Part shown: one piece after another, positions 317 through 14,514 of the stretch
Layout: the number at the start of each line of letters is the position of its first letter
How positions within the stretch are numbered: position 1 is the stretch's first letter
DNA from: a virus
Virus record (IMG/VR): IMGVR_UViG_3300021197_000084
Location: 1 to 27,559 of that record
Length of the DNA stretch: 27,559 nucleotides
Reading direction: 5' to 3' (one strand)
Notes under the pieces: model-generated
The model's input: only the letters and a program-made list of their open reading frames with translations
What the model was told of the DNA's origin: nothing
The model's database searches: none
Program-made: the position numbers and the translations under genes

Positions 317-3300
317 ATGAGTAAAAAAAGAAATACGCGAAATACTAATAAGTCTTTGAAGGCTCTAAAGCGCAAGCAATATGCACGGGGCGGTAGAAAT
401 TCTGTTAAAAGTCAACGCGAGTTATTAGAAGAGCAACAAAAAAAATCTTTAGCTAATGTACAGCCACGCGTTCAACCACCAAAAGATACTTCAACGCCTA
501 TTAAAGCAGGGACTCCTGCGACAAAAGGCGGAACTCTTTTAAATCCTAAAGACACAAAATTATCAGAGCCTAAAGTAAATCCTTCTTTATATTCTGATCC
601 AAACTTAGGCAGAGGAAGAGCAACAACTCAAACTAAAGGAATTGGGGCTATACAACAACAAACTGGCCCTTTGACTAGAGTTATATCTGATCCTGTTAAA
701 CCTTCAGCGCCTACAGCACCCCCACCTATGCCTAGAGATAGTGATCTTAGTTCTGAGCAAAGAAGGCAGGCCGAAGCTTCAAGACAAGAAGTAATAGACA
801 ATTTAAGAAGACTTGGAAGAGATACAAGCAATGCAGAAAATTCTCCGTTAACTGATTTTGTAAGAAATGTCAGCGCTCAGTCTCAGTCTCCTAGAGATTC
901 TGATGGCTCTCAAGAAGCAAGACGAGGACGTAGAGGCTCTACTCCTCCACCACGGGCTACTGAACCTACAGCACCTCCGGCAGGAAGCACACCGCCACCG
1001 CCTACTAATTCTACAGGAGGCTCTACACCAGACCCTGAAAGTCCTACAGATGTTCCATTAGGAATGGATCAGCCCGATAGAGGCTCTGTAACTCCACCAG
1101 AAGGCACAGACGCACCTATAGGTATAGATGTTAGAGGCCCACGAGCAGAACTACAACAAATGGAAGCAGTATCTTTAGACCCTACTGTCGGCATTTCTAC
1201 AGACGTTCAACAACTTGGTGAAGCGCCTGAAGCTACAATGACAGGCGTAAGCGCCCAAGAAATGGTAGCACAACAAGGCAAAGCAGATCAAGCAACTGTT
1301 GCAGGAGTAGATTCTGTAGCCGAACAGTACGCAAATAAATACGTAGAACAATATCCAGAATGGAACGAAACACAAAAAGCTGAAGCTAAAGCATGGGCCT
1401 TCCAAGCTAAAAAAGGCGGTAAGCAAGCAATGCCTTCATGGTTAATGAGTTCAGACTTTAATCGTGGTTTAGGCGTTGCTAATAAAATGGATTATGATAC
1501 AACTTCAAGGGATGCAACAACTTACGAAGCCTCTACAGCAGAAAGACTAGCAGACATTGAAGCCGCACAAGGCAAAGTTACAAAAGAAGGTGTAGCTGTT
1601 CCTGCAACTGCTGAAGAAGTAAGAACAGCAAAGCGCCGAAGAGACGATGAAGCAGAAGCTTTAGGAGATGCAGTAGGCCGCCCAGATTACAAAGACTATG
1701 CTAAAGGCGCTATGGATGACAGCGACTACGGCTTTGATCCTTCAACAGTCGATGAGCCTAAAGTAACTACAAGCGAAGGCATGACTATACCACAATCTAA
1801 AGTTGATGAAATTAAATTAGATGCTGAAAAACGTGGCCTTGATCCTACAGAAGCTTTAGATACTTACAGCAAAGCAATGGTACAGCGTGAAATTCAAACA
1901 GGTAAAGCCGCAGAAGGAACCGCCGCTGAGCTTGGTACAGCACCTACTGAAACAGCCGCACAAGCAGACTTCTTAGGGGCCGCTGATGTTGCCGCAGGAC
2001 GTAAAGAACAAATAGCTGATGCAGGCGAAGCAGGCTTTGCAACCCGTGAAGCTGAGCAAGCAACACGCGTTGGAGACATGAAATCAGCAATAGCCGCTGA
2101 AGTTCAAGCACAAAAAGATACACGTACTGCTATTACAGACGATGTGTCTGCTCAAGCCGAAGCAGAACAAACAGCTAAATTAGATGCATTTACTTTAGAA
2201 TTATCAAGACAAGCTGTTACAGGTACAGCAGTCGAAAGACAATACGAAGATCGTTTAGGTGTTCCTCCTGCAAGAACAGCCGCACAAGCTGAATACTTTA
2301 ATGCAGACTTTACACCAGAAGGTGGTAATACAGATATAGATGCTATGCCTGCTTATGAAGTAGCGGCTACAAGAACTGCACAGGTTGCAGAAGCTTCTAC
2401 AAGAATTGCAAACGAATTAGGCGATGTACCTTCAGTAGACTTAGAAGGTCGTGAAGCTATTACAGGCGAAGCACCTGTAGGAAATGCCGCGCAAATTGGT
2501 GGTATACCTACAATGGCCGCCGCAACTATGCAAGCCGTAACAGGACAAGATAGAACTGTAGCCGCCGCAGATATGATGGAGGTTGTTGCTAATATACCTG
2601 AAAACATTACAGCGGCTGTAACTCAAGACCCTGCAACTGTAGAAGCTCAACTAGATACTGGTGCTGACCCAACGGTCACAGCGGCTGTTGCGGCACTACC
2701 ACAAGAAGCACTTGTTTCTACGCAAATGGAAGGTCTTTTAGCAGGAATGGAAGATGGACAAACCCCTGCATGGGCTAGACCCGCAGTAGCGGCTATAGAG
2801 GCTCAGATGGCGCGTAGAGGCCTATCAACTTCTACAGTAGGTCGTGATGCACTCTTTAACGCTATTATACAAAGTGCATTACCTATAGCTCAGAGCAATG
2901 CTCAAGCTCTTCAACAACGCGCACAACAAAACTTATCTAACGAACAACAAGCTAATCTTGCTTCTGCACAAAATACTATGCAAGTGCGTATGCAAAATCT
3001 TGCTAACCGTCAGACTGCCGCATCTCAAACAGCAGACATGGCACAGCAAATTGCAGTACAGCAAGGCACATTTGATCAACAAGCTGTAATGACTTCTGCT
3101 CAACAACAGCAAGAAGCTCGTATGGCTACTTCACAGATGGCTCAGCAACGAGCGCAACAAGAATCTGCACAAACTCAGCAGGCCGCTATAGCTCAGCTAA
3201 GTACTAATGCTCAGATGGACTTAGCAAACTTGCAAGCTCTTAATGCCGCAGGTACTCAAAACTTAAACGCAGAACAACAAGCAAGACTACAGACATACAC

Positions 3301-5758
3301 TGCTCAAGTTAATAAAACTATGCGGCAAGCTGAGTTAACTCAAGATATGGCAAAAGCTAATCTTTCTCCTGCTCTACAGGTTGAAATGCAAAGAGTATCT
3401 GAAACCAATGCCGCCGCTAGAGATACAATGACCGCAGAGCAAACAGAACGTCTTACAGAGCTTCAAACTCTTATAGACTTCCGTAAGACTGATGCTACAT
3501 TTGCTCAACAAATGGACATGGCTAATATGTCCAACGAGCAACAAATAAACTTAGCAATGCTACAAGAAAAAGCCGCTACGGATTCAGCAAACTTTACAGC
3601 GGAGAATCAATTTGAACTAACTCGTTTAAACAATATTGTTGCACGTTCTACGCGCCAAGCAGAACTAGATCAACAAATGGAAGTTGCTAATTTAGATAGT
3701 AGTTTAAGAATAGAACTTTCTGAGTTGTCAGAGAAAAACAATACTGCTCGTGCTGAAATGTCAGCCGACCAACAAATGCGTTTAAAGAACTTAGAAACCT
3801 TAGTAAACTTTAAAACTACAAATGCTCAGCTAGGCCAACAAATGGATATGGCTAATATGGGCAACGCTCAGCAAATGGAAATGGCAATGTTGGCTGACAA
3901 AGCCGCTACAGACAGTGCTAACTTTACAGAGGCTAATCGCTTTAAATTGACTCAGCTTCAAACTGCCGCACAACACATGGCACAAAATACTGAGTTCCGT
4001 CAGCAAACTGAACTAGCTAATTTAAGCACTGAAGAGCGTTTACAGCTTGCAAACCTTACGGCTCAGAACCAAGCATCTTCAGAAAACTTAAATGCTAGTC
4101 AACAAGTAGAGCTTGCAAACTTAAATGCTAAGCTCACTACAGGCGTAAAGAATGCTGAAATGCGTCAGCAAGCAATTGCTCAAACCTTTAGTGCTGATCA
4201 GCAAATAGAGCTTGCAAACTTAGAAGCTATGAATCGTGCTGATGCTGAATCACTATCTAACGAACAACAATCTACATTAGCTACATATAACGCAACAGTA
4301 CAGCGCACTATACGTCAGACCGAACTTAACTCACGTATGGAAGAAGTCAACTTAGATGCAAGACTTAAAGTTGAGTTGTCTGAGCTTTCTGAAAAGAATG
4401 CAACAGAAAGAGCCAACATGACTACAGATCAGCAAATGAGACTTGCTAATCTAAATACTCTTGTAGACTTTAAGAAAGCTGATGCAGGTTTTGCACAACA
4501 AATGGAGCTTGCAAACTTAGGCAACGAACAGCAAATGGAGCTTGCAATGCTTCAAGAAAAGTCTGCTGTAGATGCCGCTAACTTTACTGAAGCTAACAGA
4601 GGCAGAACCCAAGAGCTTAATACTTACGTTCAGGTCATGTCACAAAACGAACAGTTTAAACAAAATGCTGACATGGCTAATCTTTCTATGGAAGAAAAGA
4701 TTGAGCTTGCTAATTTAAGTTCTAGAAGTCAAGCTGATATGGCTTCTATGTCTGCTGAGAATATTCAACAGCTTCAAATGTACGAAAAGAAAATGCAAGC
4801 AGGACAGGTCAACGCACAGCTTGCACAGGCTATGGGCTTAGCAAATCTTAGCAACGAGCAAGCCGCCGGAATGTTTAACGCTCAAATGAATGCTAATCTT
4901 GATGTAGCCGCAATGAGCAACGAACAACAAATGGAACTCGCTAACAGCAAGTTTATGCAGAGCATGACAGCTACGCAATTTAGCGCCGATCAACAGTCAG
5001 CTATTCAAAATGCTACAATGCTAACTCAAGTAGATTTGGCTAATGCAGATGCAAGAACTAGAGTGTCTGTAGAGAACGCTAAAAACTTCTTATCTATGGA
5101 CATGGCTAATCTTAATAATCGTCAGCAAGGGATTGTTATGGATCAGCAACTAGAGCAACAAGCACTACTATCCGATCAAGCCGCACAAAATGCCGCTAAA
5201 CAATTTGGTGCAACATCTCAAAATCAAATAGATCAGTTTATGATTAGTCAGTCTAATAGCATGAAGCAGTTTAATACAAGTGCGCGAAATGCTATGGAGT
5301 CCTTTAATGTTACTGAAGCTAATCGTATGGAAGCTATTGAAGCAGGTAACTTCTTACAGGCTGATCAGTTTACAGCGCAATTAGATGCAGACATTAATAA
5401 GTTTAATGCTTCTATAGAAACTCAACGAGATCAATGGAACGCCGCAAATGCACAGGCTGTTGAGCAATCAAACATTAACTGGCGTAGACAGGCTAACACT
5501 ATTGATACTGCGGCGGCTAATGCGGCTAATCAACAAAATGTTCAAAATGCTTATAACATCTCTGCACTAGATCAAACTCAGTTGTGGCAACAGTTGCGCG
5601 ATGAAGCTAATTATATACGAACAGCTTATGAAAGCGAAGAACAACGTAAAGCAACTTTGTATGCAACGGCTATTGGTAATGAAGCAGGAGCCAGTGGAGA
5701 AAAAGGCTCTTCAAGTTCTACCTCACTAATTAATTTAATTGACGATGTATTTGGGTAA
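317..5758 (+). CDS. Giant repetitive putative virion protein (1813 aa)
   Basis: This is the largest gene in the window. Residues 1-45 are Lys/Arg-rich and contain a Tyr-Ala-Arg-Gly-Gly motif at 22-26. Residues 45-270 are rich in Pro, Ser and Thr and look disordered. Residues 270-845 are Ala/Glu/Gln/Thr-rich, probably helical, and mostly acidic. From residue 848 to about 1782 the chain is a tandem array of 11-residue units with a consensus near L-A-N-L-S-N-E-Q-Q-M-E and no insertion or deletion that I can find. The C-terminal 30 residues are Gly/Ser-rich. There is no enzyme motif. From memory, proteins with similar Asn/Gln-rich C-terminal repeats are frequent and functionally unassigned in marine phages. 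Position next to the internal-virion-like genes suggests a virion component, such as a fibre or an ejected helical protein. That role is inference. RBS strength is poor (AGG about 11 bases upstream). Confidence 0.85.
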   Translation: MSKKRNTRNTNKSLKALKRKQYARGGRNSVKSQRELLEEQQKKSLANVQPRVQPPKDTSTPIKAGTPATKGGTLLNPKDTKLSEPKVNPSLYSDPNLGRGRATTQTKGIGAIQQQTGPLTRVISDPVKPSAPTAPPPMPRDSDLSSEQRRQAEASRQEVIDNLRRLGRDTSNAENSPLTDFVRNVSAQSQSPRDSDGSQEARRGRRGSTPPPRATEPTAPPAGSTPPPPTNSTGGSTPDPESPTDVPLGMDQPDRGSVTPPEGTDAPIGIDVRGPRAELQQMEAVSLDPTVGISTDVQQLGEAPEATMTGVSAQEMVAQQGKADQATVAGVDSVAEQYANKYVEQYPEWNETQKAEAKAWAFQAKKGGKQAMPSWLMSSDFNRGLGVANKMDYDTTSRDATTYEASTAERLADIEAAQGKVTKEGVAVPATAEEVRTAKRRRDDEAEALGDAVGRPDYKDYAKGAMDDSDYGFDPSTVDEPKVTTSEGMTIPQSKVDEIKLDAEKRGLDPTEALDTYSKAMVQREIQTGKAAEGTAAELGTAPTETAAQADFLGAADVAAGRKEQIADAGEAGFATREAEQATRVGDMKSAIAAEVQAQKDTRTAITDDVSAQAEAEQTAKLDAFTLELSRQAVTGTAVERQYEDRLGVPPARTAAQAEYFNADFTPEGGNTDIDAMPAYEVAATRTAQVAEASTRIANELGDVPSVDLEGREAITGEAPVGNAAQIGGIPTMAAATMQAVTGQDRTVAAADMMEVVANIPENITAAVTQDPATVEAQLDTGADPTVTAAVAALPQEALVSTQMEGLLAGMEDGQTPAWARPAVAAIEAQMARRGLSTSTVGRDALFNAIIQSALPIAQSNAQALQQRAQQNLSNEQQANLASAQNTMQVRMQNLANRQTAASQTADMAQQIAVQQGTFDQQAVMTSAQQQQEARMATSQMAQQRAQQESAQTQQAAIAQLSTNAQMDLANLQALNAAGTQNLNAEQQARLQTYTAQVNKTMRQAELTQDMAKANLSPALQVEMQRVSETNAAARDTMTAEQTERLTELQTLIDFRKTDATFAQQMDMANMSNEQQINLAMLQEKAATDSANFTAENQFELTRLNNIVARSTRQAELDQQMEVANLDSSLRIELSELSEKNNTARAEMSADQQMRLKNLETLVNFKTTNAQLGQQMDMANMGNAQQMEMAMLADKAATDSANFTEANRFKLTQLQTAAQHMAQNTEFRQQTELANLSTEERLQLANLTAQNQASSENLNASQQVELANLNAKLTTGVKNAEMRQQAIAQTFSADQQIELANLEAMNRADAESLSNEQQSTLATYNATVQRTIRQTELNSRMEEVNLDARLKVELSELSEKNATERANMTTDQQMRLANLNTLVDFKKADAGFAQQMELANLGNEQQMELAMLQEKSAVDAANFTEANRGRTQELNTYVQVMSQNEQFKQNADMANLSMEEKIELANLSSRSQADMASMSAENIQQLQMYEKKMQAGQVNAQLAQAMGLANLSNEQAAGMFNAQMNANLDVAAMSNEQQMELANSKFMQSMTATQFSADQQSAIQNATMLTQVDLANADARTRVSVENAKNFLSMDMANLNNRQQGIVMDQQLEQQALLSDQAAQNAAKQFGATSQNQIDQFMISQSNSMKQFNTSARNAMESFNVTEANRMEAIEAGNFLQADQFTAQLDADINKFNASIETQRDQWNAANAQAVEQSNINWRRQANTIDTAAANAANQQNVQNAYNISALDQTQLWQQLRDEANYIRTAYESEEQRKATLYATAIGNEAGASGEKGSSSSTSLINLIDDVFG
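2858..5662 (+). repeat. About 85 in-frame 11-residue (33-nt) repeats
   Basis: Within the 1813-aa protein the residues at 848 + 11n keep one register to about residue 1782. Anchors checked by counting codons: Asn848, Met1002, Leu1398 (LANLGNEQQME), Leu1508 (LANLSNEQAAG) and Ala1750 are all equal to 1 modulo 11. Position 1 is mostly Leu/Met, 2 often Ala, 3 often Asn, 4 Leu/Met/Phe, 8-9 often Gln-Gln, 10 Met/Ile/Phe/Ala and 11 Glu/Asp. The consensus is strongest for residues 958-1660 and fades at both ends. The DNA itself has diverged, so the repeat is clearer in protein than in nucleotides. Confidence 0.9.
3320..4969 (+). repeat. Higher-order 330-nt (110-aa) repeat blocks
   Basis: Ten 11-residue units form a block that recurs. 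Blocks of type A begin at residues 1002, 1112 and 1332 (nt 3320, 3650 and 4310). Each opens with R-Q-A/T-E-L, runs through a LSELSEKN-like unit, D-F-K/R, Q-Q-M-D/E and M/L-A-N-M/L, and closes with the A-N-F-T unit. Blocks of type B begin at residues 1222 and 1442 (nt 3980 and 4640), opening with Q-N-x-x-F-K/R-Q and A-N-L-S-x-E-E. The order is A-A-B-A-B. A weaker B-like block seems to precede at residues 892-1001. This points to growth by duplication of 330-nt segments on top of the 33-nt unit. Confidence 0.8.
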
Positions 5759-5771
5759 AGGAGAAGTATAG

Positions 5772-6848
5772 ATGGGTTTTTTAAGTAAGCTTTGGAAAGG
5801 TGTTAAAAAAACATTTAAAAAGATTGGTAAAGGTATTAAAAGTGCTTTTATGAAAGTTGGCAAGTTTATGAATAAAATCGGCATTGTAGGCCAAATAGCT
5901 TTAGGATTAATTTTGCCCGGAATTGGTTCGGCTTTAGGAGCTTGGGCAGGCACGACATTAGCCGCAGGTTCTACAGCAGGTGTAATTGCTAAAGGAGCCG
6001 CTACATTTGTAAACGCCGCAATTAATGTTGGGACAAAAGTCGGGTCTGTATTTAAAACTGTTACACAGGGAGTTACTAAAGTTGTAGGAGATACTGTAGG
6101 GGCTGTATTAAATAAAGTTCCTAAACTTGGAGATACTTTAAAAACTTTAACAGGCGGTAGATTAGATATAACTCAAAAAACCTTTAAGGGCGCTTTTAAA
6201 ACAGCAGGTAATGTTCTTACAGACACTGTAGCCGCAGGTAAAGATTTATTTAGTATGGATACTTTAACAGGAGACAATAGATTTTATCTTGAATCACTCG
6301 AAAAAAATATAGCTTCTGGAAATGTAAAAGACAGTTCAGTTAGTTCTGGTAAAATAGGCGCTTTGCCTGATCCTGAATTTACAGAACAAATTAAAGATGT
6401 AGGAAGCGATTTTAAAATAGTTGATGGTAAAATGATTTCTACAACTCCTTCAACTACAACTACAAGCCCTTCTTTATTATCAGGCGGTTCAACTAATGTT
6501 CCTACTGCTACTAAAAATATAGGGCCTTTAAAAGAAGGATATGAGTTTTTAAAAGAAAAAGGTCAAGAACAAATTGAAAAATTTGGAGATAAAGTAACTA
6601 GTGATTTATCGGCTAAATGGACAGGAACAGGCCCACAAGCCGCAGAAATAACAAGTTACAGCAGTTCACCTGCATCTTCAGAGCCTATTGTAATAGGACA
6701 AGACTCTACAATTATGGGAACTCAAGCATATCAAGCGGCTATGCAGGGTAATAATGTATTAGGTTTCTTTGGCAATCCTTCTTTAATTTACAACGCTGAA
6801 CAAGAAACAGCTAATTTTGTTAGACAACAACAGGCAGGGGGCATTTAA
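5772..6848 (+). CDS. Putative virion protein with cationic amphipathic N-terminus (358 aa)
   Basis: AAAGGAGAAG stands six bases before the ATG. Residues 2-38 carry about a dozen Lys spaced with Phe, Leu, Ile and Gly, an amphipathic pattern like membrane-active peptides. Residues 39-78 are Gly/Ala/Ile-rich and hydrophobic (IALGLILPGIG), so this part could insert in a membrane. Residues 80-165 alternate Val/Lys/Gly/Thr, and the rest is a Ser/Thr-rich, probably flexible tail. No enzyme motif is seen. The stop codon overlaps the next start by one base (TAATG at 6846). Its place between the repeat giant and the internal-virion-like genes suggests a minor virion or ejection protein that contacts the membrane. 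That is inference, and a structural role outside ejection is equally possible. Confidence 0.75.
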   Translation: MGFLSKLWKGVKKTFKKIGKGIKSAFMKVGKFMNKIGIVGQIALGLILPGIGSALGAWAGTTLAAGSTAGVIAKGAATFVNAAINVGTKVGSVFKTVTQGVTKVVGDTVGAVLNKVPKLGDTLKTLTGGRLDITQKTFKGAFKTAGNVLTDTVAAGKDLFSMDTLTGDNRFYLESLEKNIASGNVKDSSVSSGKIGALPDPEFTEQIKDVGSDFKIVDGKMISTTPSTTTTSPSLLSGGSTNVPTATKNIGPLKEGYEFLKEKGQEQIEKFGDKVTSDLSAKWTGTGPQAAEITSYSSSPASSEPIVIGQDSTIMGTQAYQAAMQGNNVLGFFGNPSLIYNAEQETANFVRQQQAGGI

Positions 6849-7444
6849 TGGCTACAATCGGAGACGAGTTACAAGTCTTAAAAGGTAATTCAAATCGTCC
6901 TGTTGCGGGTTCTTCTTTAACAGGTGATCCAGAAAACCCTGCACCCTATGAAAGGCCCCCTAAGTTTACATCTGTTCATGCGGCAAGTGAAGATTTGTTT
7001 ATGCAACTTATTGAACCTAAAAAATATGTAACTATTATGGAAGCGGTTGATGATGGCATTCCTGTTATGCAAATAACTCAAATGATATTATTTAATGAGT
7101 TTCAAAAAGGATCGTTTAATCCTGATTTAATGTTAATGTTAGTAGAACCTTTAGCATATATGATTATTGCGCTTGCAGAACGATTAGATTTAGATATTGT
7201 AATTGATGAAGATGACGAAGAAGAAATTTTTGGAGTTAATTTTAAAGAAGATAAAATTAAAGAGCTTAAAGGAGCCGCTTCAACTGGAGCAGTTCCCGCA
7301 AACATGATAACTCCTGAAATGCAAGAAAGAATAGAAGAGCTTCCTGAGACTTTAGAAGAAACTTCTCAAAGTCTTTTAGCACCTCCTGTTGTTGAAGAGA
7401 CTTCTGAAACCGAAACCCCTGAAAGTTTAATGGCAAGAAGGTAA
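6848..7444 (+). CDS. Conserved-looking phage protein of unknown function (198 aa)
   Basis: AGGGGG lies six bases before the ATG, inside the end of the preceding gene. The first 50 residues are Pro-rich. Residues 50-125 look like a compact helical domain (MEAVDDGIPVMQITQM, then a Leu/Met-rich helix ending in a run of Asp/Glu around residue 120). The tail from about 140 is Glu/Thr/Pro-rich and acidic. Proteins of this general type, with a pattern 'dG-I-P-V-...-P-D-...-E-P', are to my memory common and unnamed in marine phages. The acidic tail could mimic nucleic acid or bind the basic neighbours, but there is no direct evidence. The gene is part of the virion operon and is followed after seven bases by the 633-aa gene. 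Confidence 0.75.
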   Translation: MATIGDELQVLKGNSNRPVAGSSLTGDPENPAPYERPPKFTSVHAASEDLFMQLIEPKKYVTIMEAVDDGIPVMQITQMILFNEFQKGSFNPDLMLMLVEPLAYMIIALAERLDLDIVIDEDDEEEIFGVNFKEDKIKELKGAASTGAVPANMITPEMQERIEELPETLEETSQSLLAPPVVEETSETETPESLMARR

Positions 7445-7451
7445 TTAAATA

Positions 7452-9353
7452 ATGGCTATAGAAGAATTTGGAAAAAGTTTATTGGCAGATGTGCGTAAGC
7501 GAAAAGAAGATCAAGCTCGTAAAGCTCGTAAACGCGAAAAAAAACAAGCTTTGCAAAGTCTTGTATTTAAAGGCGTAGTTGGTATAGGCAACACTCTTCT
7601 TAAAGATAAAGCTGACAAGTTTTTAGAAAGCGAACAATTTTACAAAGAAAACATGCAGTTTAAAAAGGGCTACAACATATCTAATGAATATATAGCTCAA
7701 GAAAAAGAAGCTAGAAATAGTACTTTAGGTTATAATGCTTATTGGACAAAACTTGCTCCGGCAGATCAAATAGATTTAGCGATGACAGAAAAATATGGTG
7801 CTGAAAGTCTTTACAATATTTCAGATTGGGCAAACATGCGTTCAGAACTTATGAGTCAAATGGGAAAGGCGGCTAGAACAAATCACGAAAAAGGCCTTGA
7901 AAATGCAAAATCTTTTATTAATCAAGCAGGAGATAAAGGAGCAGAATTTTATTCTAATTTTGCAAAGCAATCTAGGCCTTCTACAATTAAAGATTTAATA
8001 ACAAACACTGTTAGGTCTTCAATAGGTGGAAAAGATTTAAATGTTGCGTCTAGAGAGTTAACTCGTAAAAGTTATTTAGGAGATGCACAAGCTTTAATTG
8101 CTTACGATAAAACTTGGGATCAAACAGGGAGCAATCAAATTTCTGAATTTTTTGCAGACACTTCACAAACTTTAAGATCAAAAGCTCCTGTATTAAAAGA
8201 AGAGTATATTGACTTAGGAAACAAAGATATATTTGGCGTACCTAAAGGAAAAGAGCCTGTAATTATAGGTACATTTCCAAACGGAGATGAACGCATTGTT
8301 AACAAAACTGGAGAAATAGCAATGTCTGTTAACGAAGCTCAAGACTTTTCAGCTTATAATGATTGGGTTGGTAAACATTCAACAGATTCTATAGATGCTA
8401 AAGCTCAACAACAAATTGGAATGTTGGCTCTTACAAAACACGCAACTGAGGAAGATACAAAGTTTTTTAATAATATAGCTAAAGAAACAGGAAGTAAGTT
8501 TTTTGGCAATGATCGTAATAAAGCAATAGCTCAAAAAAATAAATCAATTCAAGCTCATATTGCAGGTTTAAAACTTATATATAGAAATGGTTATGGAATG
8601 GGCGAAGAAACTAGTGAGCGTTTAGCTGTAGCTATGTATAGAAAACAAGAAGAGTTTATAGTAGAACAAAAAAAATCAGGTGTTTTAGGAGCTAATCCGT
8701 TTAGTCACGGTAAAACTTTTGGTACTATGATTGCAATGGCTGAACAACAAGCTCTTCCAAGCAGACCTAGAAACTTTAGTAACGCTGATATTGAAGAAGT
8801 TATAGCTTCTCCTGATGGAAAAGCAGAACTATTTAATGATTATAGACAATTAACTCCTAAAGCTATGTCAAAATATGATGAGTTAGTTGAGCAAACAGGT
8901 AATGCTTTTGTAGTTCAATCTCATACAAGAATAAAAGGCTTGGCAAAAATTTCTAACGATAATCCTAAAATTAAAGATTTAGGAACAATTGAAGAACTAT
9001 ATGAAAAATCTTTAATAAAACCTCCTGTTAGATTAGAAGTTGTAGATAAAGATTTAAACAAGCAAGTTAAAATTAAAGATACTTTATTAAATGCAACCCC
9101 TAGTTTATTAGCAAACATGCCTGTTCCTCCGGCCTTGCCAACAGACAGCACTATTCAAGAAAAAGAAACTTATCAAAAAATGTATAGGAATCAAAATAAA
9201 GAATATATGAAAATTTTAAAGGCTCAAAAAACTTTACAAAATAATATGGATATGACAAGAAAACAAGGACGAACTACTAGCCAAGGGATAACATCTGCTC
9301 AAAAATATTTAAACAGTTTGTACACTGACTATATGAATAAATACGGAGATTAG
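7452..9353 (+). CDS. Putative internal virion / ejection protein (633 aa)
   Basis: The first 35 residues are very basic (RKRKEDQARKARKREKKQ), followed by a short hydrophobic helix (LVFKGVVGIGNTLL). The rest is a long, mostly helical, charged chain without Cys clusters or enzyme motifs. Size and position just upstream of a 1719-aa partner resemble the order of T7 gp15 (747 aa) and gp16 (1318 aa), which are ejected and form the channel across the cell envelope. I see no direct sequence match to gp15, so this assignment is from layout and composition only. It starts seven bases after the previous stop and ends with TAG one base before the next ATG. Confidence 0.75.
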   Translation: MAIEEFGKSLLADVRKRKEDQARKARKREKKQALQSLVFKGVVGIGNTLLKDKADKFLESEQFYKENMQFKKGYNISNEYIAQEKEARNSTLGYNAYWTKLAPADQIDLAMTEKYGAESLYNISDWANMRSELMSQMGKAARTNHEKGLENAKSFINQAGDKGAEFYSNFAKQSRPSTIKDLITNTVRSSIGGKDLNVASRELTRKSYLGDAQALIAYDKTWDQTGSNQISEFFADTSQTLRSKAPVLKEEYIDLGNKDIFGVPKGKEPVIIGTFPNGDERIVNKTGEIAMSVNEAQDFSAYNDWVGKHSTDSIDAKAQQQIGMLALTKHATEEDTKFFNNIAKETGSKFFGNDRNKAIAQKNKSIQAHIAGLKLIYRNGYGMGEETSERLAVAMYRKQEEFIVEQKKSGVLGANPFSHGKTFGTMIAMAEQQALPSRPRNFSNADIEEVIASPDGKAELFNDYRQLTPKAMSKYDELVEQTGNAFVVQSHTRIKGLAKISNDNPKIKDLGTIEELYEKSLIKPPVRLEVVDKDLNKQVKIKDTLLNATPSLLANMPVPPALPTDSTIQEKETYQKMYRNQNKEYMKILKAQKTLQNNMDMTRKQGRTTSQGITSAQKYLNSLYTDYMNKYGD

Positions 9354-9354
9354 A

Positions 9355-12300
9355 ATGAGCAATAGATATACTGGAAGTTTTTCAGACTCTCGTGGCGAAG
9401 ACTCTTCTTCTTTTTTTACAGGCGTACCTAAATCTTTAGGGCCTTACACGGCTACTAGATTTAGAGAAGACACAGGTGTTAAAAAAGATTGGTCGATAGT
9501 GCGTGAATACATGGCAGGCAAAGTTCTTGATCCCGCATCTCTTGATTTAATGTCTGAAGATGCAGATGTTTTAGAGTCTTTTCGTGATAGCGAGTCTCGT
9601 TTTGAAAATATGATTGCAAAAGCGTTAGTGTTAGAAGAGGCTCCTCAAGAAATTAAAGATAGTTACAAGCGAATACAAGATAAATTTGCTAATATTGATA
9701 AAGAAGGTATTGGTGAGTGGGCCGAAATGATAAAAGACTATGGCATAGATGCTGTTACTGACCCGTTCAATATTGGTGCTGTGTGGTTTGCGGCTCAAAC
9801 AGGAGGCGTTGGCGCACCTGCGGCGTTAGCGGCTAGAGAAACTGCAAAGGCCGGAGCAAAAACAGCACTTAAAAAGGCTTTAACTGGGCCTTCTACTGTA
9901 GCTCGATTGCCATCTAAAAGCGCATCAACTATAGTACGTGAAGCACCTACACAAGAATCAACTTTACGAACTCTTAGAGCTTTAATAGATAAAAACCCTA
10001 TGAAATCTGTAGCAACTCTTGGTGCAGTTCAAGGAACAGTAGATGATCTATCTCGTCAGAATTTAGCTATAACTGTAGGCTCTCAAGAAGATTTTAACCC
10101 CCTTCAAACAGTAGTTACAGCGGGAGCTTCAGCAGGTGCTAATACTATAATGACTGTTGGAATTAATAAACTGACCAAAAAGTTTAAAGCTGATTCTGAT
10201 ATAGATGAGTTTACACCTGAAAGGGGCGCTGAGCTTTTTGACGAGGGCGTTGAAGGCGAGTGGATTCCTGCTTCTGGAGCAGGGATATTAAATGACTTAG
10301 ATCGTTTAATTTCTGGGCCTTCTGGAAGCTATAAAGATATAACACCTGACGAAGAGCTTATACAAAAGTATGCGGCTGATTTAGGGGGAGGTGCTAAAAC
10401 TGTAGAAGAAGTACAGGCTATTATTATGGCGGCGGCTCAGACAGAAAAAACAGCAGGAGCTATAAAAAATAAAATAAAAAAAGACCTGTACGCTCACGCT
10501 ACGCACAATACTAGCCGATGGTTAGGAAAGGCTTCAGGAGTTTTAAGTCCTTTTGCAAAAGTATCTCCAACAGCTAAATTACTTCAAGAAAAGTTTTCAC
10601 ATGAAATGGGTATAAGTTGGAAAGTTGATAGTCGTTTAGTTGGAAAAGATTTTTTTGAAACTCAACGTGAAATTCAAGGTCGTTTTTTTGAGGACTATAG
10701 ATCTATTGTAGAGCCTTTAACAACTAGTAAATTTTTAAGACGTAATGAAGATAATGCTAAGCTTGCTGATGAAATTAACGATGCTTTAATGTTAGCTGTT
10801 CGAGGACAAAAAGCAAAAAGCTCTGACAATGGTTTATCTTCTGAAATAAACAAAGAAATTAATAAAGCTTCAGTAGGTGTTAAAAATTTATACATGCAAA
10901 TGGGCGCTGAGCTTAAAGAAGCAGGGCTTATTGAAAATGAAGTAGCTGATTATATTCCTAGATCGTGGAATAAAAAGGCTATTTTAGAAAACAAAGAAGG
11001 CCTAGCTAAATTATTTGAAGATCAAAATGTTGTTTCTAAAGGCAAAGGAATGGAAACAGTTGAAGACATGTTAAGAATTGACAGCCAATTAGATGGCGGC
11101 GGTTCTGGCGGTTTCTTTTTCTCAGCTAAACGATCTTTTGACAACATTAAAAGGGATGCAGATTTTCAAGAGTTTTTAGATACTGACGTTAGAGCAACTA
11201 TGAATCTTTATACTTTTCAAGCCGCTAAAGGTTTAGCAAAAGTTAGAACTTTAGGTGTGCGAAACGAAAAAGAATTTAAAGATTTTTATATAAATCAAAT
11301 CCGAAAAGAAATGGCAGAAGCAGGAGAAACATTTACCTCTAAAGATGCCGAAAGAATTACTAGAGTTTATCGAACTACTACTTCTGAAAACTTAAACAGG
11401 TTTGGCAAATACGCTCAAGGCGCAGTAGATGGCTACGGTTTAGTAAACAGAGTAGCTTACTTAGGTCTTGCAACAGTATCTAGTTTAACAGAAGCCTTCT
11501 TAAACTTTAGTAAAGCAGGGTTTAAAAATAGTTTTAAAGGCTTGTCAGAAGCTATGGAGCTTTCGTACAAAGGCGCTACAGGAAACATCCAATCTAAACT
11601 AATGTCTCAGCACAATATGACAGCCGCAGAAGCAAGAGCAGAAATGCGTAAGTTTAGTTTAGGAATGGACATGGGATTAACTCAGTTAGAAAATCGTTTA
11701 GGCGGTGATGACTTACAAACTAAATGGATGCAAAAAGCAAGCAGTGGTTTCTTTAAAATGACTTTGCTTGAAGATTGGACAAAGTTTGTACAAACAAGTT
11801 CATTTATGAGCGGTAAGAATTTAATTGAAGAAAACATTCAAGCTCTTGTAGCGCATGGTTCTAGGCCATTAGGTAAAAGACAAAACACTTTAATAGGAGA
11901 GTTGGCTGAATTAGATATAAATTATAAAGATGCTATGGAGTGGTACAAGCGTGGAGCTAAAAGGAATGACGAGTTTTATGATAAAAAGTTTTTGGCAGGT
12001 GCGGCACGATATGCTAACTCTGTAATTTTACAGCCTTCTGGAATGTCTAATTTAAAGCCTTTATTGTTTAGCAACCCTAAAACTTCTATAGCTTTTCAGT
12101 TAATGGGATACCCTGCGGCATTTACAAACACTGTTCTTAAACGTGGAGCAAAACAACTTACTAAAGATGTAAGAAGCGGCGACCCTAGAAACGTAGGTAA
12201 GGTTGCAGTGACTGCTATATCAATGGTACAAGTTGCTCGTATTATGAATGATTGGAGATCAGACGGGAAGTCAGAAGAAAAAGGCACACTTAATGCAAAC

Positions 12301-14514
12301 TTACAGGCAGTAAAGCGTGTGGGCGGTTTAGGTATCTTAGCTGACAACATTACTAAAGGTTATGATGCCGCTAAATATAATCAGTCTGTTCTTGGATATG
12401 CTACAATGCCTTTTGGCCCACTAGCTACAGATGCTTTAAGTGCTACTAGGCGAGGCGTTGTTCCTACATTAGCTAGAAAAATACCTGCCGCTACATCTCC
12501 AGTACAACGAATTTTAGGAATTGTAGATGAAGACGAAGCAGAAAAGTTTAAAGCTGACATGGATCAGTTTGTATATGAAGCAGATAAAAAAGTATCTGAG
12601 TTTGAAAAATCACTTATACCTGAGTTTGAAAGTACTGGAGGACTATTAAATTATGCAACTGGAGGCATAGTTACAGACGTTCCTAATGTACCTACAGAGC
12701 CTGATGAAAGAATAAATAAATTAACAGGTCGCCCATATAACGAAGATGCAGGTGAAGCTTATACAGACATAGAAGATCGTACTAGATTTTCTATGGGTGG
12801 TAGACTAATAGCTAAAAAACTAACTAGTTCTTTTAATAAGAAAACTCCCTCGCCTTTAAGACAATCCGAAGATGCTGAGTTTATAGCTAGACAGCAAGCA
12901 GAAATTGACCCAGATGGTGTTGTTCTTTACGGTATACAAGATGATCTTTTAGACTTAAACAGGTCTATGGAGGCTAATAGAGCTTCTCAAACAACTCAAA
13001 GAGCAAACACAGTTGGAACAGCTACTAAAGCATCAGACTATTTAGACTCTTTAGGAGCAAGCGGAAGGTCTTTAGACTATGGAGCAGGTAAAGGTTTAAA
13101 TGCAAAAGCTAATCAAATAGATGACACTTTTGAACCTTTCCCTGAAGATGCTTTTAATCCTACTTTTGTTTCTCCAAAAGATGTTCCAGAAAATACTTAT
13201 GGTAAAATAATAAGCACTAATGTAATTAATGTTCTTCCTCCCGCTTTAAGAAAAGAAGCTGTTCTTAAAATAGGCGGCGCTTTAAAAATAGGTGGCAGGG
13301 CTTTAATACAAACGTGGGATGCCGGAGCCGCTAAAGCAGGAATGGCTTCTAAAAAAGCAACTATTGTAAAAAACGAACCGTTAGCTTTTACTACTTCTAC
13401 AGGCTCTTATCAAAAAGGTTTTACTAAAAATGAACTTGAAGAATATGTTCAAAAAACATTGGGTAAAAACTTTGAGGTATCTAGTGTCCCGTCTAAACAG
13501 GGCATAAGCGGAGTTGCTGTTGTTATAACTAAAAAGTCTAAAAGACTTCAGAAGTTTGAAGGGGGTGTTGCTGATAGTTATACAATTCAACGAGGAGACA
13601 CTTTAACTAAAATAGCACGAGAAAATCAAACAACTGTAGAAGAGCTAGCAAAAATTAATGAAATTAAAGATATAAATAAAATATATGCAGACGATGTTTT
13701 AAAATTATCAAACCCTTCAGGAGTAGCAATACTTAAACAATTAAAAGAAACCCCTAATAAAGAACAACTAAAAACAATAGAAAAAATAGCTAAGAAAATA
13801 AACGATAGAAAAATAACAAATGTTACTGAAGAAGTAGCTAATGAATATAAAGAAGTAATTATTAAAAATACATTAGCGGCTAAAAATTATATTCTTTCAA
13901 AAACTGACGAGGTTAAAGATAAAATTGAAAATGTAATTAAAGATATTGAAATTCCTGAAATAAATTTTGAGTCTAAAGGAAGAACATCAGAAAACAATAA
14001 AGGAATGCAACCCGCTAACTTACTACCTCAAAATATTATGGCTTATGCTAAATACGTAGCAGGGAATAAACTTGGCCTAGAAGGTTCGGGAAAAGATATA
14101 GACGTAGCTAAATTTGGAACAAAACAAAAAGAAGTTTTAAAACAAGCAATGAAAAACGCTGTTAAAGACGGAAGAAATTATATAAAATATTCTGATTATC
14201 CTAATATGAAAACAGGCGAAAGGCCAGATAAATTTTACAAAGCTAGTCGCTCTGCTAGATCATTAGTAGATTTAGTTAAAGAGTCTTTTACTGATCCTGT
14301 TTTTGAAATGTTTACAACAACTGGAGTATTTAGTTTTAAACAACTCCCTAATGGAAAGTTTGAAATTATTCCAGATGTGTATGACTTTGATAAATCTAAA
14401 AGCGGTGGTAAAAATAGAAAAGAAGCTATAGATAGTTATGGTTCTTTAACTCAACAAGCTCAAGACATCAGTGAAAATCAAACATATCATTTTAATGTTA
14501 AAGGAACAATCTAA
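9355..14514 (+). CDS. Giant multidomain virion protein with methyltransferase-like and LysM domains (1719 aa)
   Basis: GGAG lies six bases before the ATG. Residues 1-1090 form an internal-virion-protein-like body, largely helical, with an Ala/Gly-rich hydrophobic section near 130-180 and a region near 700-920 of the type found in long ejected proteins (FFKMTLLEDWTKFVQ). Linkers with aromatic-x-x-Gly-Gly occur at 1100-1104 and 1145-1149, with a related F-E-G-G at 1401-1404. Residues about 1215-1398 look like a class I SAM methyltransferase: motif I LDYGAGKG at 1240-1247, then E-P-F-P, then TNVINVLPP from 1288 and KIGGRALIQTW. Residues 1409-1451 are a LysM domain (YTIQRGDTLTKIA) that should bind peptidoglycan. 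A Lys-rich linker leads to a C-terminal domain with D-V-Y-D at 1674-1677. Likely role: an ejected protein similar in position to T7 gp16, here carrying extra domains. The ejection is inferred, the domains are seen. Confidence 0.85.
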   Translation: MSNRYTGSFSDSRGEDSSSFFTGVPKSLGPYTATRFREDTGVKKDWSIVREYMAGKVLDPASLDLMSEDADVLESFRDSESRFENMIAKALVLEEAPQEIKDSYKRIQDKFANIDKEGIGEWAEMIKDYGIDAVTDPFNIGAVWFAAQTGGVGAPAALAARETAKAGAKTALKKALTGPSTVARLPSKSASTIVREAPTQESTLRTLRALIDKNPMKSVATLGAVQGTVDDLSRQNLAITVGSQEDFNPLQTVVTAGASAGANTIMTVGINKLTKKFKADSDIDEFTPERGAELFDEGVEGEWIPASGAGILNDLDRLISGPSGSYKDITPDEELIQKYAADLGGGAKTVEEVQAIIMAAAQTEKTAGAIKNKIKKDLYAHATHNTSRWLGKASGVLSPFAKVSPTAKLLQEKFSHEMGISWKVDSRLVGKDFFETQREIQGRFFEDYRSIVEPLTTSKFLRRNEDNAKLADEINDALMLAVRGQKAKSSDNGLSSEINKEINKASVGVKNLYMQMGAELKEAGLIENEVADYIPRSWNKKAILENKEGLAKLFEDQNVVSKGKGMETVEDMLRIDSQLDGGGSGGFFFSAKRSFDNIKRDADFQEFLDTDVRATMNLYTFQAAKGLAKVRTLGVRNEKEFKDFYINQIRKEMAEAGETFTSKDAERITRVYRTTTSENLNRFGKYAQGAVDGYGLVNRVAYLGLATVSSLTEAFLNFSKAGFKNSFKGLSEAMELSYKGATGNIQSKLMSQHNMTAAEARAEMRKFSLGMDMGLTQLENRLGGDDLQTKWMQKASSGFFKMTLLEDWTKFVQTSSFMSGKNLIEENIQALVAHGSRPLGKRQNTLIGELAELDINYKDAMEWYKRGAKRNDEFYDKKFLAGAARYANSVILQPSGMSNLKPLLFSNPKTSIAFQLMGYPAAFTNTVLKRGAKQLTKDVRSGDPRNVGKVAVTAISMVQVARIMNDWRSDGKSEEKGTLNANLQAVKRVGGLGILADNITKGYDAAKYNQSVLGYATMPFGPLATDALSATRRGVVPTLARKIPAATSPVQRILGIVDEDEAEKFKADMDQFVYEADKKVSEFEKSLIPEFESTGGLLNYATGGIVTDVPNVPTEPDERINKLTGRPYNEDAGEAYTDIEDRTRFSMGGRLIAKKLTSSFNKKTPSPLRQSEDAEFIARQQAEIDPDGVVLYGIQDDLLDLNRSMEANRASQTTQRANTVGTATKASDYLDSLGASGRSLDYGAGKGLNAKANQIDDTFEPFPEDAFNPTFVSPKDVPENTYGKIISTNVINVLPPALRKEAVLKIGGALKIGGRALIQTWDAGAAKAGMASKKATIVKNEPLAFTTSTGSYQKGFTKNELEEYVQKTLGKNFEVSSVPSKQGISGVAVVITKKSKRLQKFEGGVADSYTIQRGDTLTKIARENQTTVEELAKINEIKDINKIYADDVLKLSNPSGVAILKQLKETPNKEQLKTIEKIAKKINDRKITNVTEEVANEYKEVIIKNTLAAKNYILSKTDEVKDKIENVIKDIEIPEINFESKGRTSENNKGMQPANLLPQNIMAYAKYVAGNKLGLEGSGKDIDVAKFGTKQKEVLKQAMKNAVKDGRNYIKYSDYPNMKTGERPDKFYKASRSARSLVDLVKESFTDPVFEMFTTTGVFSFKQLPNGKFEIIPDVYDFDKSKSGGKNRKEAIDSYGSLTQQAQDISENQTYHFNVKGTI

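Follow-up and report, generated by a model that had tools for sequence, protein, structure and literature searches.

The marine podoviruses related to HMO-2011 encode a giant protein with a long array of 11-residue (hendecad) repeats, in which the phase is strictly kept and array lengths are quantised, the array of one clade changes in steps of 110 residues, and the gene lies in a constant neighbourhood. We tentatively read it, at slightly less than an even chance, as a hendecad-helix ejection protein whose copies associate laterally to form a tube or a rod. From these observations we infer a continuous helix, side-by-side packing, a function in ejection, and a role as a conduit or in setting a length. 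To our knowledge, variation in the length of repeats in phages has so far been interpreted as a ruler only where a long tail exists. In the present phages, which have almost no tail, all 21 length classes obey the same 11-residue arithmetic and no exception was seen. This raises the question of what a podovirus measures or builds with 11-residue units. The array changes its length by exact units, as though it were a ruler, or a tube with components that have to be kept aligned.

The Hendecad Protein and Its Gene Neighbourhood

The sequence analysed, hereafter the window, is the whole stretch of 27,559 bases at positions 1–27,559 of IMG/VR virus record IMGVR_UViG_3300021197_000084. As judged from translations compared with the HMO-2011 annotation, its gene order is that of an HMO-2011-type podovirus, with structural genes running rightward and replication genes (ribonucleotide reductase, DNA polymerase and primase-helicase, read from translations) running leftward. 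The hendecad protein (1813 residues, 317..5758, plus strand) has relatives in 27 named phage records and in IMG/VR; no Pfam, PHROG or NCBIfam model matched its ORF, and no relatives were found in cellular genomes (GTDB contigs). Its N-terminal region (residues 1–812, 317..2752, plus strand) is rich in proline, serine and threonine, variable and not quantised, with 97 distinct lengths among 105 relatives. There follows an N-terminal anchor (residues 813–866, 2753..2914, plus strand) with the single-copy motif WARPAVAAIEAQMARRGLSTSTVGRDALFNAIIQSALPIAQ, in which P, W, A, P and A are invariant across 16 diverse members. The array from Pro856 to Trp1722 (2882..5482, plus strand) spans 866 residues, or 78 x 11 + 8, and includes an expandable middle of four 110-residue units (residues 1002–1441, 3320..4639, plus strand), to which length changes of exactly 10, 20 or 30 hendecads map, as well as a constant distal block of eight hendecads of the type QFNAxxxNAxx with an aromatic residue at position 2 (5201..5464, plus strand). 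The C-terminal anchor (residues 1716–1785, 5462..5671, plus strand) reads NINWRRQANT...LWQQLRDEANYIR, and the spacing between its two tryptophans is invariably 35.

Four further genes follow on the same strand. The first encodes a 358-residue protein (5772..6848) with a basic amphipathic N terminus and a hydrophobic segment at residues 33–60, which has sub-threshold Pfam matches only and is a candidate membrane-active ejection protein. It is followed by a 198-residue protein (6848..7444), a 633-residue protein assigned to the T7 gp15 position by position only (7452..9353), and a 1719-residue protein with LysM at the T7 gp16 position (9355..14514), which matches PHROG 7348 (E 6e-248), a family carrying the label ‘endolysin’. 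Ahead of LysM, the part of the 1719-residue protein encoded at 12955–13650 resembles a SAM-methyltransferase fold, and a PDB sequence search with this part gave no match. A homologue of the 198-residue protein lies downstream of the hendecad gene, on the same strand and within 11–2219 bp, in all 202 loci with enough downstream sequence. Next in the named phages come a mid-sized protein (~370–760 residues) and then a giant one (~820–1720 residues), an order that resembles, in the sizes of the proteins, T7 gp15 followed by gp16. The downstream genes look like a DNA-ejection cluster, the equivalence to gp15 and gp16 being suggested by order, size, LysM and PHROG 7348. Directly after the hendecad gene of HTVC115P stands gp46 (L061:5585-6034), annotated as a toxin-activating lysine-acyltransferase (HlyC type), and an annotated N-acyltransferase (L352:4730-5203) stands just before a Peptidase_S74 protein of Rhizobium phage RHph_N2; modification of ejection proteins is a possible function of such genes.

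Periodicity and Anatomy of the Array

The initial annotation, made from the sequence of the window, had described about 85 consecutive 11-residue repeats over some 935 residues. Its coordinates and reading frame are right (base 2858 corresponds to residue 848, and base 5662 to the end of residue 1782). The five residues that it had assigned to one phase (848, 1002, 1398, 1508 and 1750) do share it, all being 1 modulo 11. The autocorrelation that it had proposed as a check gave a significant lag-11 signal, which is strong over residues ~855–1756: with BLOSUM scoring over residues 847–1782, z scores against composition-preserving shuffles were 9.6, 11.8, 11.2 and 11.3 at lags 11, 22, 33 and 44, with adjoining lags at or below zero, and the same autocorrelation found no lag-11 signal in residues 1–846. 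Between ~833 and ~1756, a leave-out profile assigned the same phase to each 44-residue window. The register thus stands as far as ~1756, but the last ~30 residues of the described range (within 1735–1782) were not scored in phase, and hence 78 units between the anchors, or ~82 overall, is the better count. Super-periods, which had gone unmentioned, are also present: lags 55, 110, 165, 220, 275, 330 and 385 exceed all other multiples of 11, so that the 11-residue units are grouped into periods of 55 and these in turn into periods of 110, with identity of up to 27% at lags 110 and 330.

The family-wide consensus is L/M/I/V at position 1, A/F at 2, N (62%) at 3, A/L at 4, Q/S/N/T at 5, mixed residues at 6, a charged residue at 7, Q/N at 8, Q (50%) at 9, A/M/V/I at 10 and a charged residue at 11, which bears out the Asn/Gln-rich character first noticed in the window protein. 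Helix breakers are nearly absent: the 27,775 array residues of 73 representatives that are less than 80% identical to one another include 7 prolines, and they include no cysteine. Mapped onto an 11/3 helix, positions 1/4/8 make up one hydrophobic face and positions 2/6/10 another, opposed to it, while the side with positions 7/11 is charged and the one with positions 5/9 (Q/S/T) is uncharged. The suggestion of two contact faces agrees with the second hydrophobic harmonic exceeding the first in 72 of the 73 members, while the amplitude of the bifacial hydrophobic pattern alone is not significant in a permutation over the 11 positions (p = 0.13). A single-faced amphipathic membrane helix of the alpha-synuclein or LEA type was rejected, as the first hydrophobic harmonic is close to zero and two faces are found instead; a globular or amyloid-like Gln/Asn domain was rejected in view of the strict 11-residue periodicity and the predicted helices. 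The face pattern is compatible with an alpha-helical barrel having an amide-lined lumen.

Structure prediction is in line with the hendecad helix that had been proposed, as the AF2 models are all-helical and without a globular fold, though of low confidence (pLDDT 66, and 46 for a 1068-residue part of the window protein, the latter being uninterpretable). Foldseek against the PDB returned no relative of known structure, phmmer with the array against all PDB chains gave no match at E<=1, and a search of BFVD yielded three strong matches only, apparently members of the hendecad family. Taking a straight helix at 0.15 nm per residue, the window array would be ~129–130 nm long, and 12 to 98 hendecads would extend over 21 to 163 nm. 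A straight tube of 130 nm would far exceed the cell envelope, so that proteins of 38–98 units would fold back, bundle or project.

Length Quantisation among Relatives

Relatives were gathered from IMG/VR scans and named phages, in sets that over-represent marine metagenomes and the 80 best matches of each scan, and the array was bracketed by the single-copy motifs SALPIAQ (Pro856) and NWRRQ (Trp1722). The distance from Pro856 to Trp1722 equals 8 modulo 11 in all 270 distinct relatives counted in these sets, as had been expected from the window alone, array lengths differing by multiples of 11 residues throughout. These distances range about sevenfold, from 140 to 1086 residues, and fall into 21 length classes of 12, 13, 14, 15, 16, 19, 20, 21, 25, 27, 28, 30, 32, 37, 38, 48, 58, 68, 78, 88 and 98 units. 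The rule held for 47 of 47 distinct cores at first look and for 116 of 116 after a second scan; it was then recorded beforehand as a prediction, to which 153 of 153 new cores conformed, these coming from four scans seeded with the HMO-2011, phiM6, HTVC033P and MQM1 proteins. One member overlooked by the anchor model and found by hand (L010, 98 units) conforms as well. Members with no countable anchor distance, which either run off the end of a contig or have a broken frame, were left out of the 270; in L048 and L053 the N- and C-terminal anchors lie in separate ORFs, a broken frame that may be a sequencing error or real. The claim that the array contains no indel extends to the family, in which 2306 of 2306 windows of the 73 representatives are in phase. 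The 270 relatives are not independent of each other, yet changes off the 11-residue grid are seen in none. Unit number changed at least 31 times by parsimony on a 73-row tree of the anchor regions, a rough figure because the tree had 128 columns only and many of its forks were unresolved.

Other lengths serve as controls. Between the first Met and Pro856, 97 different distances occur with no preferred class modulo 11, and the C-terminal tail and the 358-, 198- and 633-residue families vary in length over many such classes. Ten genomes of the 21-unit class, all sharing these genes, have arrays of 67% identity without a single indel, large or small, whereas indels per 1000 aligned residues number 6 in the C-terminal tail, 17 in the N-terminal region, 23 in the 198-residue protein and 55 in the 358-residue protein. 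The inference of selection against length changes other than in units of 11, drawn originally from one protein, is therefore upheld both by the 270 relatives and by the contrast between the array and its flanks and neighbours. The length of the N-terminal region, which looks disordered, rises with unit number (Spearman 0.67, n=105, confounded by phylogeny), and unit number correlates weakly or not at all with the lengths of the downstream proteins.

How the Array Changes in Length

In the clade of the window protein the classes lie ten units apart (38, 48, 58, 68, 78, 88 and 98), and an alignment at unit resolution shows that 10, 20 or 30 units were gained or lost within the repeated middle. 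The window differs by 330 nt from L007, as L018 does from L039. Units 1, 2 and 4 of the four 110-residue units are 51–60% identical in protein and 56–59% in DNA, and unit 3 is 26–27% identical to these. Deeper branches show one-unit changes (19/20, 15/16 and 37/38), which lie in divergent parts. Growth takes place in the NL-type part, and the last eight units are kept in all members. The proposed step of 33 nt accordingly holds in so far as differences are multiples of 11 residues, but the window clade moves 330 nt at a time.

C-Terminal Domains

Among the members scanned with Pfam, only the Roseobacter phages CRP-3 (14 units) and CRP-212 carry Peptidase_S74 at the C terminus; the tail of a metagenomic relative with 14 units, L244, is S74-like, and the Pfam search found no S74 in the window protein or in most members. 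An S-D-x-x-L-K type motif is kept in L244 and in one (L070) of the two Pfam-positive members (L069 and L070), which makes self-cleavage plausible. Forty-four HMO-2011-type members (20 units) end instead in a CWVAREVYG...RWxxFRxWL domain (e.g., L054:13000-13161), preceded by a Gly/Ala-rich hydrophobic segment. Peptidase_S74 is best known as a chaperone of trimeric fibres. The three S74-bearing members match PHROGs labelled ‘virion structural protein’ (E 4e-13 to 2e-9), two of them also ‘DNA ejection protein’ (5e-10 and 5e-4), while matches to tail-fibre PHROGs are weaker (3e-4 and 1e-3). Stripped of S74, these members gave no PHROG match; the matches thus reflect a domain in common and are not proof of homology to ejection proteins. 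BLAST hits that contain the domain likewise include proteins of DNA ejection and injection. The domain also occurs in a podoviral protein of Salmonella phage 7-11 annotated as DNA ejection/injection, and in a protein encoded just before a P22-like injection translocase in Pseudomonas phage AH02. Homology to the S74 proteins of 7-11, AH02, RHph_N2 and PVA1 was considered and rejected, none being found outside S74. Lag-11 periodicity is absent from T7 gp14–gp16 and from three of the four S74 proteins tested; that of RHph_N2 has a weak lag-11 signal which does not recur at 22 or 33.

Comparison with Known Systems

The closest known case of the same 11-residue arithmetic is that of the siphophage tape-measure proteins (Belcaid et al. 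2011, PMC3271669; TP901-1, PMC5099701), to which no sequence link was seen. They too are long helical phage proteins with 11-residue units in variable number, they change length through duplication or loss of units, and they have an aromatic residue at a fixed position, as the hendecad family has F/W at position 2 of its last eight units. In contrast, the phages of the hendecad family are podoviruses with tails too short to measure, their arrays have no 18-residue units and keep strict phase over up to 98 units, and their variable part is rich in N, Q and L rather than aromatic. The marker [FW]x10 occurs seven times running in none of 104 members and five times running in 23. CRP-1 to CRP-3 have short tails (PMC6918029), and the tail of Aeromonas phage MQM1 measures 9.2 nm (PMC10410586) against 27 nm for its array of 16 units if straight, so that the array does not measure the virion tail there.

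A different likeness is offered by the DNA pilot protein H of phiX174, an alpha-helical decameric tube (PDB 4JPP) that has been proposed to serve as a tube for ssDNA (PMC7354561). It has three hendecads only, followed by heptads, in a tube of 17 nm (PMC7354561), but these hendecads follow the pattern QxE[LI]Ax[ML]xNE in the frame that the family uses, and they too have an uncharged face rich in Q/N (inner surface described in PMC7354561). Scored against the family profile, the H hendecads (QKEIAEMQNET; sequences from PMC7354561) reach +12.6 bits in one frame and are negative in the other ten (permutation p = 0.01–0.02), with Q, E, A, N and E placed as in the window consensus. The virus is unrelated and the array has no detectable homology to H; the resemblance is one of analogy, not homology. 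Like the podovirus ejection proteins (T7 gp14-gp15-gp16 and P22 gp7-gp20-gp16), the hendecad protein is encoded at the head of a cluster whose last product is a giant protein of gp16 size, and the S74 domain of some members is found in annotated ejection proteins as well. Homology to T7 gp14, the best of four T7 proteins at 7.5 bits, was rejected, since unrelated ORFs reach 8.7 bits. A broad literature search found no published virion proteomics for any member of the hendecad family.

Possible Function and Alternative Explanations

If our tentative reading is right, the hendecad protein would be the first product of the DNA-ejection (internal virion) cluster and would form one continuous 11/3 alpha-helix between the anchors, with the number of hendecads free and their phase fixed. 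Copies would pack laterally via both hydrophobic faces to give a tube or rod, the charged side pointing outward and the Gln-rich side inward; the physical model for this arrangement is the tube of the phiX174 pilot protein. Indels of lengths other than multiples of 11 residues would rotate the whole remainder of the helix through part of a turn, breaking both seams, and would be selected out, while gains and losses of whole hendecads would be tolerated. In the window clade, the array would have become longer or shorter as 110-residue (330-bp) units were exchanged in register. The further idea that these marine short-tailed phages build, after attachment, a helical tube across the envelope with a heritable and digitally adjustable length (12 to 98 hendecads), altered one unit at a time over long evolutionary times and by 110-residue blocks in the window clade, is rather unlikely.

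The main rival places the protein on the virion surface, as a fibre or appendage whose reach would depend on the length of its shaft, a right-handed (hendecad) trimeric coiled coil, the C-terminal S74 or CWVAREVYG domain being a folding chaperone or tip. We regard this as rather unlikely. The S74 domains of CRP-3 and CRP-212, the S74-like tail of L244, the fibre PHROG matches and the CWVAREVYG domain of the 44 HMO-2011-type members would all suit a fibre, and in HMO-2011 and phiM6 tail-fibre genes do lie a few genes upstream. However, S74 is known from ejection- or injection-linked podoviral proteins (7-11 and AH02) too, and the window protein and most members are without it. Moreover, the gene adjoins the ejection-type cluster in 202 of 202 loci, lysis genes stand between the fibre genes and the hendecad gene in several phages, and two opposed hydrophobic faces fit a plain trimer poorly. 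The place in a cluster of internal proteins would also suit a rod or scaffold of the internal capsid core, lying round the portal or along the DNA and forming no conduit, with a length that follows capsid or genome architecture; a helix as long as 129 nm would fit there only if wound or folded. This we hold to be improbable, as genomes stay at ~53–56 kb in HMO-2011, CRP and HTVC103P-type records although units range from 14 to 28, and the charged and uncharged sides, judging from the face pattern, would suit a tube better than a rod.

Quantisation could also be a mutational by-product, with repeats recombining only in register and no structural constraint at work, and the 330-bp steps of the window clade do fall in the most repetitive part of the array. 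In-register exchange of 330 bp accounts for the ten-unit step, but not for the lack of ordinary indels of 1–6 residues. The window repeats are just 38–59% identical in DNA, and single-hendecad steps are found in divergent parts; together with the absence of array indels in the ten genomes of the 21-unit class, against 6–55 per 1000 residues elsewhere, these observations mean that ordinary indels must be removed by selection, which points to selection for phase and leaves the by-product explanation very improbable.

Cultured Members and Their Annotation

The cultured members, which are phages of Rhizobium, Roseobacter, Vibrio, Aeromonas and Pelagibacter with 13 to 28 units, constitute a natural length series, and the family as a whole amounts to a natural experiment of great clarity in which the phase of a helix is the trait under selection. 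Rhizobium phage RHph_N3_19 has 13 units, Vibrio phage CHOED 15, HMO-2011 20 and HTVC103P 28. The group is widespread and abundant in the sea, and nearly all of the annotated members examined here are listed as ‘hypothetical’. The member in Caudoviricetes sp. ctYwJ313 (L063:4693-7281) is annotated as ‘huntingtin’, evidently because it is rich in glutamine.
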